A DNA stretch of 43,544 nucleotides from Candidatus Nitrosopumilus sp. (GTDB lineage: Archaea; Thermoproteota; Nitrososphaeria; Nitrososphaerales; Nitrosopumilaceae). The stretch spans positions 1 through 43,544 of the forward strand of contig NZ_JANQTA010000019.1 in the NCBI RefSeq assembly GCF_028278985.1. The letters run 5' to 3'. The notes under the pieces are model-generated. The model was given only the letters and a program-made list of their open reading frames with translations, was not told the origin of the DNA and made no database searches. Position numbers and translations under genes: made by a program. Shown piece after piece: positions 38,060 through 43,271 of this stretch. Numbering within the stretch: the first letter of the stretch is position 1; each line of letters starts with the position of its first letter.

Positions 38060-38311
38060 ATGGGGAAAATCAAAATCAGAACTGGTAGAGGCACAGGAAC
38101 TATGGAAGTAGATAGTGATCCTTCAAAATGGTCTGGTGACGAATTTAAAAAAATTCAAGCAGCAAGAAAAGCAGCTTCTGCTGGTAGAACAGTATCTTCA
38201 GGAAGAGGCACTGGTAGAAGAAAATTAAGCGACATACCAGAACCAAAGGAAAGACCAGAATACAAAGGAACAATTAGTTCTGGACGTGGTACCGGTTCTA
38301 GAAAAAAATAG
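38060..38311 (+). CDS. basic protein with three GRGTG repeats
   Basis: This 83-aa, strongly basic protein contains the motif GRGTG three times: RTGRGTGTMEV near the start, SSGRGTGRRKL in the middle and SSGRGTGSRKK at the end. A Lys/Ala helix (DEFKKIQAARKAASAGR) lies between. The rest is likely disordered. Gly-Arg-rich repeats suggest RNA or DNA binding, but no family is recognised. It starts at ATG with CorA 76 bp upstream. Confidence 0.72.
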   Translation: MGKIKIRTGRGTGTMEVDSDPSKWSGDEFKKIQAARKAASAGRTVSSGRGTGRRKLSDIPEPKERPEYKGTISSGRGTGSRKK

Positions 38312-38374: not shown

Positions 38375-39046
38375 CTAGATTTTGACATCAGGATTTTCGG
38401 CTTTTACTTTTTCCCAGTCTTTAAGGAAGTTTTCCAATCCAATTGTAGTAAGAGGATGGCCTAACATTTTGTCTAAAACTGCAGGTGGAAGAGTGACTAC
38501 ATCAGCTCCAATCTTTGCTGCTTCAACTACATGCATTGGGTGTCTAACACTTGCAACAAGAATTTCTGTTTTAAAATTATAGTTTTCATGGGAGAAAATT
38601 TTTTTGATTTCTTCAATTAACTGCATTCCATTTTGTCCAATGTCATCTAATCTTCCAATAAATGGACTAACATACTTAGCACCGGATTTTGCAGCCAAGA
38701 GTGCTTGATTTGGTGAAAATATCAAAGTAACATTAACAGGAATTCCTTCTGAAGATAATGTTTTACAGGCTTTTAGACCATCAGGTGTCATAGGAACTTT
38801 AACGACAACATTTTCTCCGTATTGACGTAAACGTTTTCCTTCTTCAATCATTCCTGAATATTCAGTACTAACAACTTCAAGACTTACATCACCTTTGATA
38901 ATTGATGTAATCTCTGCCATTGCATCTTTTGGATTGCCTTTTTCTTTTGACATTAAAGATGGATTTGTTGTGATTCCATCAAGTAGTCCCATGTCATTGA
39001 ATTTTTTTATTGATTCAAGATTAGCGGTATCAAGAAAAATTTTCAT
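38375..39046 (-). CDS. tal: transaldolase (small, FSA/TalC-like)
   Basis: Transaldolase moves dihydroxyacetone units between sugar phosphates. The 223-aa protein is of the short TAL/fructose-6-phosphate aldolase class: MKIFLDTANLESIKKF, GITTNPSLMSKE, NVVVKVPMTPDGLKA (Schiff-base Lys), VNVTLIFSPNQALLAAKSGAKYVSPFIGRLDDIG and EILVASVRHPMHV. It overlaps the transketolase C-subunit gene by 4 bp, as the last gene of a non-oxidative pentose phosphate operon. Confidence 0.94.
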   Translation of the reverse strand: MKIFLDTANLESIKKFNDMGLLDGITTNPSLMSKEKGNPKDAMAEITSIIKGDVSLEVVSTEYSGMIEEGKRLRQYGENVVVKVPMTPDGLKACKTLSSEGIPVNVTLIFSPNQALLAAKSGAKYVSPFIGRLDDIGQNGMQLIEEIKKIFSHENYNFKTEILVASVRHPMHVVEAAKIGADVVTLPPAVLDKMLGHPLTTIGLENFLKDWEKVKAENPDVKI

Positions 39047-40017
39047 AATTTTTTGCTCCTCAATTCTTTTACTTGTTTTGCTATATTAATTGATGTTATA
39101 CCGTGTTTTTCTAAGAGTAATGGAATTTCATTATCCCTAGCAGATTCACCAAACATATCTTGAGCACCAATACGCTTGATTGGAACGGGATAAGATTCAG
39201 AAACAGATTCTGCAACTGCAGAACCTAATCCACCAAATATGTTATGTTCTTCAGTAGTGACAATACAACCAGTTTCCCTTGCAGCTTTTTCTAAAATTTC
39301 ATTATCAATTGGTTTGATAGAATACATGTCTAATACTCTACATGAAATTCCATCTTGTTGCAAAGATTCTGCAGCCTCTAAAGCCATGCGAACTGTAATT
39401 CCACATGCTGCAATAGTACAATCAGTTCCATCTCTAACTGTGATGCCTTTTCCAATATTGAATTCTTGAGATTCAGAATGGACCAATGGAGTTTTTGAAC
39501 GAGCCATTCTCATGTAGAAAGGACCATATTCATTTGCCATCAATCGAGTTAATTTTGAAACAGCAATTGTATCAGCAGGAATAAAGACTCTAAAATTTGG
39601 AATAACACGCATTATTGCAATATCTTCAATCTGTTGATGTGATCCTCCATCAGGTCCAACAGACAACCCTCCATGAGAAACTACCAGTTTTACATTAAGG
39701 CCTTTCTTTCCAGAAGGGGAAGGATATGCAATATTATTTCTAATTTGATCTACTGCACGTCCAGGAAGAAAAATTGCATAAGTACTAGCAAAAGACGTTT
39801 TTCCAGAAACAGCAAGACCAGCAGAGACAGTAACAAGATTTGCTTCAGCGATTCCTACATTGAAGAATCTATTTGGAAATTCCTTTCCAAAACCTGATGT
39901 TTTTAATGAATCAGTGGTATCAGCTCCTAAGACTACAACGTTTGGGTTATCTTTTCCTAATTGGATTAGAGATTTTGAATATTCAGAACGCATGTCAGTC
40001 ATGATTGGATCATTCAT
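39043..40017 (-). CDS. transketolase, C-terminal subunit
   Basis: This 324-aa protein covers the pyrimidine-binding and C-terminal domains of transketolase: MRSEYSKSLIQLG, FFNVGIAEANLVTVSAGLA (catalytic Glu), FASTYAIFLPGRAVDQIRN, SHGGLSVGPDGGSHQQIEDIA and TTEEHNIFGGLGSAVAE. In archaea transketolase is commonly split in two genes; the other half is immediately upstream with a 4-bp overlap. The complex makes pentose and erythrose phosphates for nucleotides and aromatic amino acids. Confidence 0.94.
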   Translation of the reverse strand: MNDPIMTDMRSEYSKSLIQLGKDNPNVVVLGADTTDSLKTSGFGKEFPNRFFNVGIAEANLVTVSAGLAVSGKTSFASTYAIFLPGRAVDQIRNNIAYPSPSGKKGLNVKLVVSHGGLSVGPDGGSHQQIEDIAIMRVIPNFRVFIPADTIAVSKLTRLMANEYGPFYMRMARSKTPLVHSESQEFNIGKGITVRDGTDCTIAACGITVRMALEAAESLQQDGISCRVLDMYSIKPIDNEILEKAARETGCIVTTEEHNIFGGLGSAVAESVSESYPVPIKRIGAQDMFGESARDNEIPLLLEKHGITSINIAKQVKELRSKKL

Positions 40018-41681
40018 ACAAAACCTGCCTCCTGTGCAATTTTTCTAATTTGTTCTTGTTTTTCTCCAATTACGTGTAGATTAATCCATTTGTTTACTAA
40101 TTCAGAACCTCCAAGTTGATTTGCTTTTTCAAGTAGTTGTTTTCTTCTAGATTTCAATACTTCAATTCTAAAGTCTTTGATTGCAACTCTGACATCTTGT
40201 TGTCCAATAATTGCGCCTCCACCAACAAAAGCTCGGGCACCATCAGCAAAGACCGAGCCTATATTTTCTAGATTTACACCACCATCGGCCTCAATGTAGC
40301 CTGAGAAATTATGTTCAGAAAGAAGAGATTTCAGTCGGGCCATCTTCTCATGAGTAGCTTCAATGTATTTTTGACCAGATTTTCCAGGAACAACAGACAT
40401 TACAATAATTTGATCTAATGAAGGAATGAATTTGTTAGCCCATTCAGGGAAATCAGTATCAGGATTTATTGCAAAACCTACACCAACTTGATTTTGTTTC
40501 AATAAATCATGAATCTCACCAAAACTTGATTCATCTGTTACTTCTGCATGAACTGTTACAACATCACTTCCTGCATCAATGTAATCTCGAATATGTTTTA
40601 CAGGTTCATTAATCATTAAATGGGTATCAAAAGGAATTACTGTTAATGACCTTAATTCTTTAATTTTTGTATGATCAAAAGTTTTGTTTGGAACAAACTG
40701 ACCATCCATTACATCAAGATGAATATAATCGGCTCTTCCATGTACACATCGCTTTACTTCATTTTCTAGATTTGTCATATCACCTGCAATTATTGAAGGT
40801 GCAATCATGAATTGTGAATCCAATTCTTGATTAATGATAGGAACTACATCTGAATCAGGAGCTTTTCCATGCCATTGAGGATTATCCTCCATATGTTCAA
40901 CTGATTTTCCTTTAATGGTTCTAGAAATAATTATTGTTGGAATACCTTTTGTTGCATTTGCTTTTTTAATTGCTGCATCAACTTGTTCTACACGATGACC
41001 ATCAACTTCAATGACATTCCAACCAAATGATCTCCATTTGTCACCAGTTTTCCATCTTGAAGCATCCTTCCACATTTCTGATAAGTTATCACCTTCTAAT
41101 TTTTCATCTAATGGCATGACTCGTTCAGTGTAAGAGTCTTGTTGGATGAAATTCCTATCTAAAAATACTGTAAGATTATCAACTTTGTATTTGGATGCAG
41201 TCATGGCTGCCTCCCAAACTTGACCTTCGTCAGATTCACCATCACCAATTATTGTATATACATGATAGTTTTTTGAATCTAATTTCCCAGCAAGTGCAAT
41301 TCCAATGGAATAAGACAAGCCAGTACCAAGTGAACCGCCACAAAATTCAACTCCAGGACATTTAAGATCTGGATGCCCCTGTAATTTACTTCCAAATTTT
41401 CTTAGAGTTTCAAGTTCTGATTCAGGAAAATATCCAGCTACTGCCATGTTAGAAAAGAGACCAGGTGCTGCATGGCCTTTAGATAAAACTAAACGATCAC
41501 GGTCTTCCCATTGAGGATTATTAGGATCAAATTTCAGGTGTTTGTAAAATAAACATCCAAGAATCTCAGCCATTGAAAATGAACCGCCTGGATGTCCTGA
41601 ACCAGCAGTGTTTGTACCCTTAATGACTAATTTTCGGGCTTTGAGAATATTCTTTTTGATTTGATAATAATTAAGCCCCAT
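40014..41681 (-). CDS. transketolase N-subunit fused to ribulose-phosphate 3-epimerase
   Basis: Two enzymes share one 555-aa chain. Residues 1 to about 288 are the thiamine-diphosphate half of transketolase: GSGHPGGSFSMAEI, SKGHAAPGL, GGSLGTGLSYSIGIALAG, IIGDGESDEGQVWEA. Residues 292 to about 505 are an epimerase: MIAPSIIAGDMTNLENEV, YIHLDVMDGQFVPN, DTHLMINEP, SVVPGKSGQKYIE and EADGGVNLENI. The expected metal ligands H321, D323, H354 and D466 are present. A 50-residue helical tail follows. Both activities belong to the non-oxidative pentose phosphate pathway. M292 could be an internal start for free epimerase. The downstream genes supply the other transketolase half and transaldolase. Confidence 0.95.
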   Translation of the reverse strand: MGLNYYQIKKNILKARKLVIKGTNTAGSGHPGGSFSMAEILGCLFYKHLKFDPNNPQWEDRDRLVLSKGHAAPGLFSNMAVAGYFPESELETLRKFGSKLQGHPDLKCPGVEFCGGSLGTGLSYSIGIALAGKLDSKNYHVYTIIGDGESDEGQVWEAAMTASKYKVDNLTVFLDRNFIQQDSYTERVMPLDEKLEGDNLSEMWKDASRWKTGDKWRSFGWNVIEVDGHRVEQVDAAIKKANATKGIPTIIISRTIKGKSVEHMEDNPQWHGKAPDSDVVPIINQELDSQFMIAPSIIAGDMTNLENEVKRCVHGRADYIHLDVMDGQFVPNKTFDHTKIKELRSLTVIPFDTHLMINEPVKHIRDYIDAGSDVVTVHAEVTDESSFGEIHDLLKQNQVGVGFAINPDTDFPEWANKFIPSLDQIIVMSVVPGKSGQKYIEATHEKMARLKSLLSEHNFSGYIEADGGVNLENIGSVFADGARAFVGGGAIIGQQDVRVAIKDFRIEVLKSRRKQLLEKANQLGGSELVNKWINLHVIGEKQEQIRKIAQEAGFV

Positions 41682-41798: not shown

Positions 41799-43271
41799 AT
41801 GAAAATCAAGTTAGAGTCATCAGCCAAAAAGAAAACCCAATTACTTTGTGGATTTATTCTAGAAGAAACTGACAAAGTATTAGGATTACCAAAATATGAT
41901 ACTAAAACCACATCATCAATTAATCAATCAATTAAGGATAATGGTGGAAAATTAGGGAATTTAACAGTAATTCCAATTTCTGGCAAAAAACCTGCTCAAA
42001 GAATCCTACTTGCAGGAATTGGAAAAAAAGACAAAATCACTAATGATACAATAAGATATGTTTCAGGTAAAATTGCATTAAAAGCCCGTGAATTAAAATT
42101 AAAAGAATTCACAATTGTTGCACCTCCTAGTTTTGTTAAAGAAGTAACTGCAAGTGTTTCACAAATTGTGGAAGGAGTAAAAATGTCACTTTACAAATTT
42201 GATAAATTCAAAGCAGAGAAAGAGGTTGTTCTTCCAAATCTTACAATTGTTAGTTCAAAATCAACCAAAGTCTCAAAAGCTCTAAAATCTTCAGAGATTA
42301 TTGCAGATGGTGCAATTTTCACGAAAAGCATAGCAAACTTACCACCAAATCAATGCACTCCTTCAACTTTGGCAAGTTTTGCAAAAACAATTTCAAACAA
42401 AAATAAAATGAAATGTAAAATTATTTCAAAATCTGAACTGAAAAAGAATGGATTTGGGGGAATTACAGCAGTAGGTCAAGGAAGTAAGAATGAACCAAAA
42501 TTAATCATCATGGAGCACAATCATGGTCCTAAAAATAAAAAGCCAATAGTTCTTGTTGGAAAAGCTGTAACATTTGACACTGGTGGAATTTCACTCAAAC
42601 CAGGAGCAAATATGGATGAGATGAAATTTGACAAATGTGGAGGATGTACAGTTTTAGGAATAATGAAAGCTGTTTCAGAACTGAAATTACCAATTAACGT
42701 TATAGGAATTGTTCCATCGGTTGAAAATATGCCTGATGGAGAATCATATAGACCAGGAGATATTATCAAATTATACAATGGAAAGACGGCTGAAATTTTG
42801 AATACAGATGCTGAAGGAAGATTAATTCTTGCAGATGCATTAGCATATGGAGAAAAATATTACTCTCCACAAGCAATTATTGATTTTGCAACTTTAACTG
42901 GTGCTTGTATTATTGCATTAGGAACTAATGTTGCAGGAATGGTTTCTAGTGACGAAAAACTTGCAGGAAAGATTTTTGATTCATCAAAAAGAACAACTGA
43001 AGAAATTTGGCAATTACCATTAAACCAAGACTACATGGACATGATAAAATCAGATGTTGCTGATATGAAAAATATGGGAATTGGTAGAGCAGCAGGAACC
43101 ATTACTGCTGCAGCATTTCTAAGAAATGCAATAGAAAAAACTCCATGGGTACATCTTGACATTGCTGGAGTTGCATGGACCCAAACTGCAACAAAAGAAA
43201 AATCATACAATCCAAAAGGAGCAACAGGTTTTGGTGTTAGATTAATTTTAGATTATTTACAAAAGTTATGA
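41799..43271 (+). CDS. pepA: leucyl aminopeptidase (M17, PepA)
   Basis: This 490-aa cytosolic metallopeptidase removes N-terminal residues and is hexameric in relatives. The catalytic domain shows NLPPNQCTPSTLA, VLVGKAVTFDTGGISLKPGANMDEMKFDKCGG with the catalytic Lys and metal-binding Asp, and the family signature ILNTDAEGRLILADAL. It ends in GATGFGVRLILDYL. The N-terminal regulatory-like domain (1-160) is present. The ATG at 41799 starts the gene; a TATA-like tttattaaat lies some 40 bp upstream. Confidence 0.95.
   Translation: MKIKLESSAKKKTQLLCGFILEETDKVLGLPKYDTKTTSSINQSIKDNGGKLGNLTVIPISGKKPAQRILLAGIGKKDKITNDTIRYVSGKIALKARELKLKEFTIVAPPSFVKEVTASVSQIVEGVKMSLYKFDKFKAEKEVVLPNLTIVSSKSTKVSKALKSSEIIADGAIFTKSIANLPPNQCTPSTLASFAKTISNKNKMKCKIISKSELKKNGFGGITAVGQGSKNEPKLIIMEHNHGPKNKKPIVLVGKAVTFDTGGISLKPGANMDEMKFDKCGGCTVLGIMKAVSELKLPINVIGIVPSVENMPDGESYRPGDIIKLYNGKTAEILNTDAEGRLILADALAYGEKYYSPQAIIDFATLTGACIIALGTNVAGMVSSDEKLAGKIFDSSKRTTEEIWQLPLNQDYMDMIKSDVADMKNMGIGRAAGTITAAAFLRNAIEKTPWVHLDIAGVAWTQTATKEKSYNPKGATGFGVRLILDYLQKL

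Follow-up and report, generated by a model that had tools for sequence, protein, structure and literature searches.

The question raised by this locus is whether a gene that joins the N-terminal half of a transketolase to a ribulose-phosphate 3-epimerase (RPE) is genuine and, if so, what the encoded chain does for the cell. The gene lies in the window, i.e. the whole 43,544-nucleotide stretch of Candidatus Nitrosopumilus sp. contig NZ_JANQTA010000019.1 that was analyzed (Table 1). A sequence-only reading had proposed the domain pair; its coordinates and domain calls agree with the Pfam matches, and the strand, which it had not given, is the minus strand. There the gene forms a single open frame of 555 aa, while the plus strand of the same interval is interrupted by many stops. 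The epimerase is nearly entire, with the Ribul_P_3_epim match covering profile positions 2-198 of 198.

Table 1. Features of the fused gene and of the downstream genes (window coordinates; residues numbered in the fused protein)
Feature	Coordinates	Strand	Details
Fused gene	40014..41681	-	555 aa: transketolase N-half, RPE and C-terminal extension
Transketolase_N (ThDP/pyrophosphate) domain	40821..41648	-	aa 12-287; Pfam E-value 7.8e-48
18-aa insert in transketolase domain	41052..41105	-	aa 193-210 (EKLEGDNLSEMWKDASRW); alignments
Junction DSQFM with M292	40806..40820	-	aa 288-292; no free linker
Ribul_P_3_epim domain	40206..40805	-	aa 293-492; Pfam E-value 3.5e-51, motif positions, alignment to solved RPEs
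Epimerase active-site loop PGKSGQ	40371..40388	-	aa 432-437; PGF.GQ in nearly all other RPEs
C-terminal helical extension	40017..40169	-	aa 505-555; accompanies the fusion
tktC, transketolase C-half	39043..40017	-	324 aa; Pfam Transket_pyr and Transketolase_C
TalC-type transaldolase	38375..39046	-	223 aa; Phe129 in YVSPF motif

The fusion itself is already known. A genome survey (PMC11237513, mSystems 2024) describes, for 73 of 98 Thaumarchaeota assemblies (cluster 341.1), a fusion of the Tkt N-terminus to Rpe and suggests that the non-oxidative pentose phosphate pathway is complete in those organisms. The window protein has the same domain order (transketolase N-half, then Rpe, in one chain) and belongs to the same lineage; it comes from an amoA-positive genome, groups in trees with Nitrosopumilaceae and Nitrososphaeraceae loci, and is by description a member of this cluster. 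Origin, junction, active-site and C-terminal details and biochemistry of the fusion are not given in the survey's passage on it. The statement in the sequence-only reading that no enzyme of this design has been characterized holds insofar as we found no biochemical work on a transketolase-half/epimerase fusion in the open-licence literature (subscription papers may be missed), but as a claim of a new architecture it is superseded by the 2024 report. What is new here is the single origin of the fusion, the persistence of the unfused operon in relatives, the constant length of the junction, a C-terminal extension linked to the fusion and an epimerase loop specific to the window's family.

An assembly frameshift as the source of the fusion, which the earlier reading had named as one objection, is ruled out. 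The window's family (f1) was identified as Nitrosopumilaceae by its match to a named locus, as was family f3 as Nitrososphaeraceae by named loci. All 44 of the f1 genomes in a phylum-wide sample, the window included, have one continuous frame, with one full-length match over both domains per genome (62-100% identical), and many of these genomes are closed, single-contig assemblies. The dN/dS ratios against four relatives are 0.03-0.05 for the transketolase domain and 0.04-0.11 for the epimerase domain, and the value for the C-terminal tail is also far below 1. The fusion is genuine and looks functional.

We propose with considerable confidence that the fused chain is the bifunctional alpha (ThDP-binding) subunit of a two-chain transketolase, carries a working epimerase at its C-terminus, feeds ribose synthesis, and descends from a single fusion event. 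The transketolase half exhibits the ThDP-site motifs SGHPGG (28), KGHAAP (68), QGHPD (101), GDGESDEG (146), LDRNFIQQD (174) and QWHGK (269), of which the GHP, GDG and WHG cores are invariant in the alignment of fused relatives. The C-half encoded by tktC has the motifs IAEANL and SHGGLSVGPDG, so that ThDP/Mg and substrate motifs are found in both halves. The enzyme belongs to the split type, in which the N-half (ThDP pyrophosphate) is separate from the C-half (pyrimidine and C-terminal domains). The closest solved relative of both halves is the split transketolase of Carboxydothermus hydrogenoformans (PDB 6yaj/6yak; for the Transketolase_N domain, 6yak chain AAA), whose halves are likewise separate chains and whose N-chain, unlike the fused protein, carries no epimerase. 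Its PDB title calls it an active alpha2beta2 heterotetramer; because the nearest solved relatives of both halves are chains of this enzyme, the fused chain would be expected to pair with the adjacent tktC product into an alpha2beta2-type transketolase. Our search of open-licence papers did not find the study of this split transketolase. The 18-aa insert was seen only in Nitrosopumilaceae, with a slightly different length in locus L043, and has low confidence in the AlphaFold2 model. One f1 genome contains, beside its fused gene, a second transketolase N-half match (G086:C32:11290-12000; 43% identical, aa 12-265).

The operon also holds the transketolase C-half and a transaldolase, as the sequence-only reading had stated (Pfam, NCBIfam), and the borders between fused gene and tktC and between tktC and the transaldolase gene are both ATGA stop/start overlaps. 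Fructose-6-phosphate aldolases have Tyr at the YVxP[FY] position where TalC transaldolases have Phe; the window's transaldolase has Phe, not Tyr, and its Phe129 is shared with Thermotoga 1vpx and the 3s0c family in the alignment. Convergent with the transaldolase gene, on the plus strand (38060-38311), lies a gene whose basic 83-aa product contains three GRGTG motifs; a relative of this protein (60-69% identical) is likewise encoded next to the operon in five other f1 loci (L039, L040, L041, L054 and L055). On the other side, a leucyl aminopeptidase-like (M17) gene (41799-43271, plus strand) is divergent from the operon; many f1 and f3 loci retain this adjacency.

The epimerase domain carries the motifs HLDVMDG (321), HLMI (354), MSVVPGKSGQ (428) and EADGGV (464), and shows the features that define RPEs: a TIM barrel, His/Asp metal ligands and two catalytic Asp residues (HxDxMDG, HLM, DGG). 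Its fold matches 2fli (TMt 0.92) and its best family matches are ribulose-phosphate 3-epimerases; it passes the RPE subfamily model NF004076 (189.3, cut-off 165) and falls short of the equivalog cut-off of NCBIfam TIGR01163 (rpe; 185 bits vs 212.6). The stand-alone RPEs 1rpx, 2fli and 1tqj are homologous over the full length and have the same catalytic and metal motifs, but they are free enzymes without the C-terminal extension and with the loop PGFGGQ instead of PGKSGQ. With the catalytic motifs intact in both domains, the two active sites appear complete in one chain, as had been suggested; intact motifs and low dN/dS together rule out a degenerate epimerase.

In family searches of the 99%-complete genome, PF00834, PF00456 and PF02779 have one match each, all at the window operon. 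The second objection named by the earlier reading, a separate rpe gene combined with an inactive epimerase domain here, does not apply: the sole PF00834 match is the fused gene. RpiA and the gluconeogenic FBP aldolase/phosphatase were found; 6-phosphogluconate dehydrogenase (6PGDH) was absent by family search. No hexulose-phosphate synthase (HPS) scored above the cut-off, the sole weak match being the fused RPE itself (a very diverged HPS could escape), and a ribose route based on HPS was therefore dropped. The archaeal Hps-Phi fusion, described as experimentally validated in PMC11237513, also joins consecutive pentose phosphate enzymes, but these are other enzymes, and HPS is below cut-off in the genome studied here.

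Transketolase and transaldolase together convert 2 F6P + GAP into 2 Xu5P + R5P. Since 6PGDH is missing and HPS is not above the cut-off, ribose should come from F6P and GAP, and the Xu5P formed then needs epimerizing. With transaldolase and the separate RpiA, the fused protein and its partner would make up a non-oxidative pentose phosphate pathway in which F6P and GAP from gluconeogenesis are converted to ribose 5-phosphate and erythrose 4-phosphate. From the gene content (no 6PGDH, FBP aldolase/phosphatase present), the likely flux is from transketolase through Xu5P to epimerase, i.e. the transketolase would make Xu5P and the attached epimerase would convert it to Ru5P. Transketolase expression in soil ammonia oxidizers fits gluconeogenesis (PMC11131427). 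The organism studied here is itself an ammonia oxidizer, since amoA is present in its genome.

The order tktN-rpe-tktC-tal is common to several families, with tktN and rpe fused in f1 (13/13 loci) and f3 (7/7) and adjacent but unfused in f2 (5/5; perhaps Nitrosocaldaceae), f4 (10/10), f5 and f12; amoA is present in f2 and f5 despite the lack of fusion and absent from f4 and f12. The fused set forms one clade in the maximum-likelihood trees of each domain (RPE 99/96, TK-N 99/98), which indicates a single fusion event, in the ancestor shared by Nitrosopumilaceae and Nitrososphaeraceae. Only three of the 80 split-transketolase loci listed from the genome collection are fused, all in Nitrososphaeria, and outside this class no fusion occurs in the 77 other loci among the matches listed. 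The event would have been the loss of the stop/start between neighboring tktN and rpe: in the unfused locus L064 the end of tktN (KILKEELGL-stop) and the start of rpe (MSIKIAPSIL) overlap in ATGA, and a small indel at such a border would be enough to yield the fusion.

Such an origin is also what would be expected of a near-neutral merger of operon neighbors, kept by descent and bringing no gain beyond equal expression, for which one event between bordering or overlapping genes, as seen in the relatives, suffices. We regard this as a real possibility but lean away from it, since no reversal was found in 44/44 f1 and 3/3 f3 genomes of the phylum-wide sample or among the 23 fused loci examined, and since the C-terminal extension and the invariant junction suggest later adaptation. 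For the bifunctional subunit that we favor, the benefit would probably be fixed stoichiometry, co-translation and proximity of the two enzymes.

WHG and the start of the RPE lie 23 residues apart in 21/21 fused proteins. AlphaFold2 predicts both folds confidently for the window protein and for a Nitrososphaera orthologue (pTM 0.92 each), with the last transketolase helix (280-288) running near-straight into strand beta-1 of the RPE (292-297) and with a helical C-terminus (497-534 and 541-551). The residues after DGG number 79-90 in all fused relatives vs 42-69 in stand-alone RPEs; this extension may clamp the domains or serve in assembly. The sequence-only reading had suggested that the assembly may channel its substrate, and a defined particle could indeed hand on Xu5P from the transketolase active site to that of the epimerase: consecutive enzymes share one chain, the junction is of constant length, the extension is tied to the fusion, and the inter-domain placement is confidently predicted in two distant orthologues. 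In TIM barrels, however, beta-1 begins on the non-catalytic side, away from the active site. The epimerase being attached at beta-1, the sites of one chain should point apart and a tunnel within it is unlikely; moreover, the ammonia oxidizers of f2 and f5 cope with separate genes. We thus consider channeling improbable. The open-licence literature yielded no papers on transketolase-epimerase channeling (subscription papers may be missed). Equally doubtful, in our estimate, is a more elaborate form of the channeling model, in which the linker-free junction and the helical extension would lock a transketolase-epimerase particle, perhaps with TktC and transaldolase, and either Xu5P would be handed over or the PGKSGQ loop would be tuned to the partner; if true, this particle would be a mini-metabolon of mesophilic ammonia-oxidizing archaea.

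M292 does sit at the domain junction, as had been pointed out, but the suggestion that internal initiation there could produce free epimerase as well fares poorly. An ATG stands at this border in 15/24 fused genes, and two f3 relatives (L049 and L051) have AAGGAG just upstream of it; against this, the codon is TTC (Phe) or CTN (Leu) in 7/24 and TTG in 2, so that it is not conserved as a start, no Shine-Dalgarno-like stretch precedes M292 in the window, and Met may be just one tolerated hydrophobic residue of beta-1. We consider internal initiation very unlikely.

The canonical loop PGFGGQ, which is not known to be essential, is replaced in f1 epimerases, with K or Q in place of F throughout (PGQSGQ once), and these proteins also have VGG[GS]A in place of the common VAGSA-type motif; PGKTGQ occurs as well in the stand-alone epimerase L065 of family f7. 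The kinetics or the substrate of the epimerase could therefore differ, but that the domain uses a different ketose phosphate as substrate or serves as a structural module is highly improbable, given the intact metal and catalytic motifs, the purifying selection on the domain, its best matches to ribulose-phosphate 3-epimerases and its position as the genome's sole epimerase.

As the sole visible epimerase and, with tktC, the sole visible transketolase of its genome, the fused protein should supply ribose and erythrose 4-phosphate to a member of the ammonia-oxidizing archaea, which are among the most abundant cells of oceans and soils. Nitrosopumilaceae and Nitrososphaeraceae share the fusion as a derived character, and because the unfused operon persists in sister families, the fusion offers a clean natural case for studying what gene fusion gives an enzyme pair.
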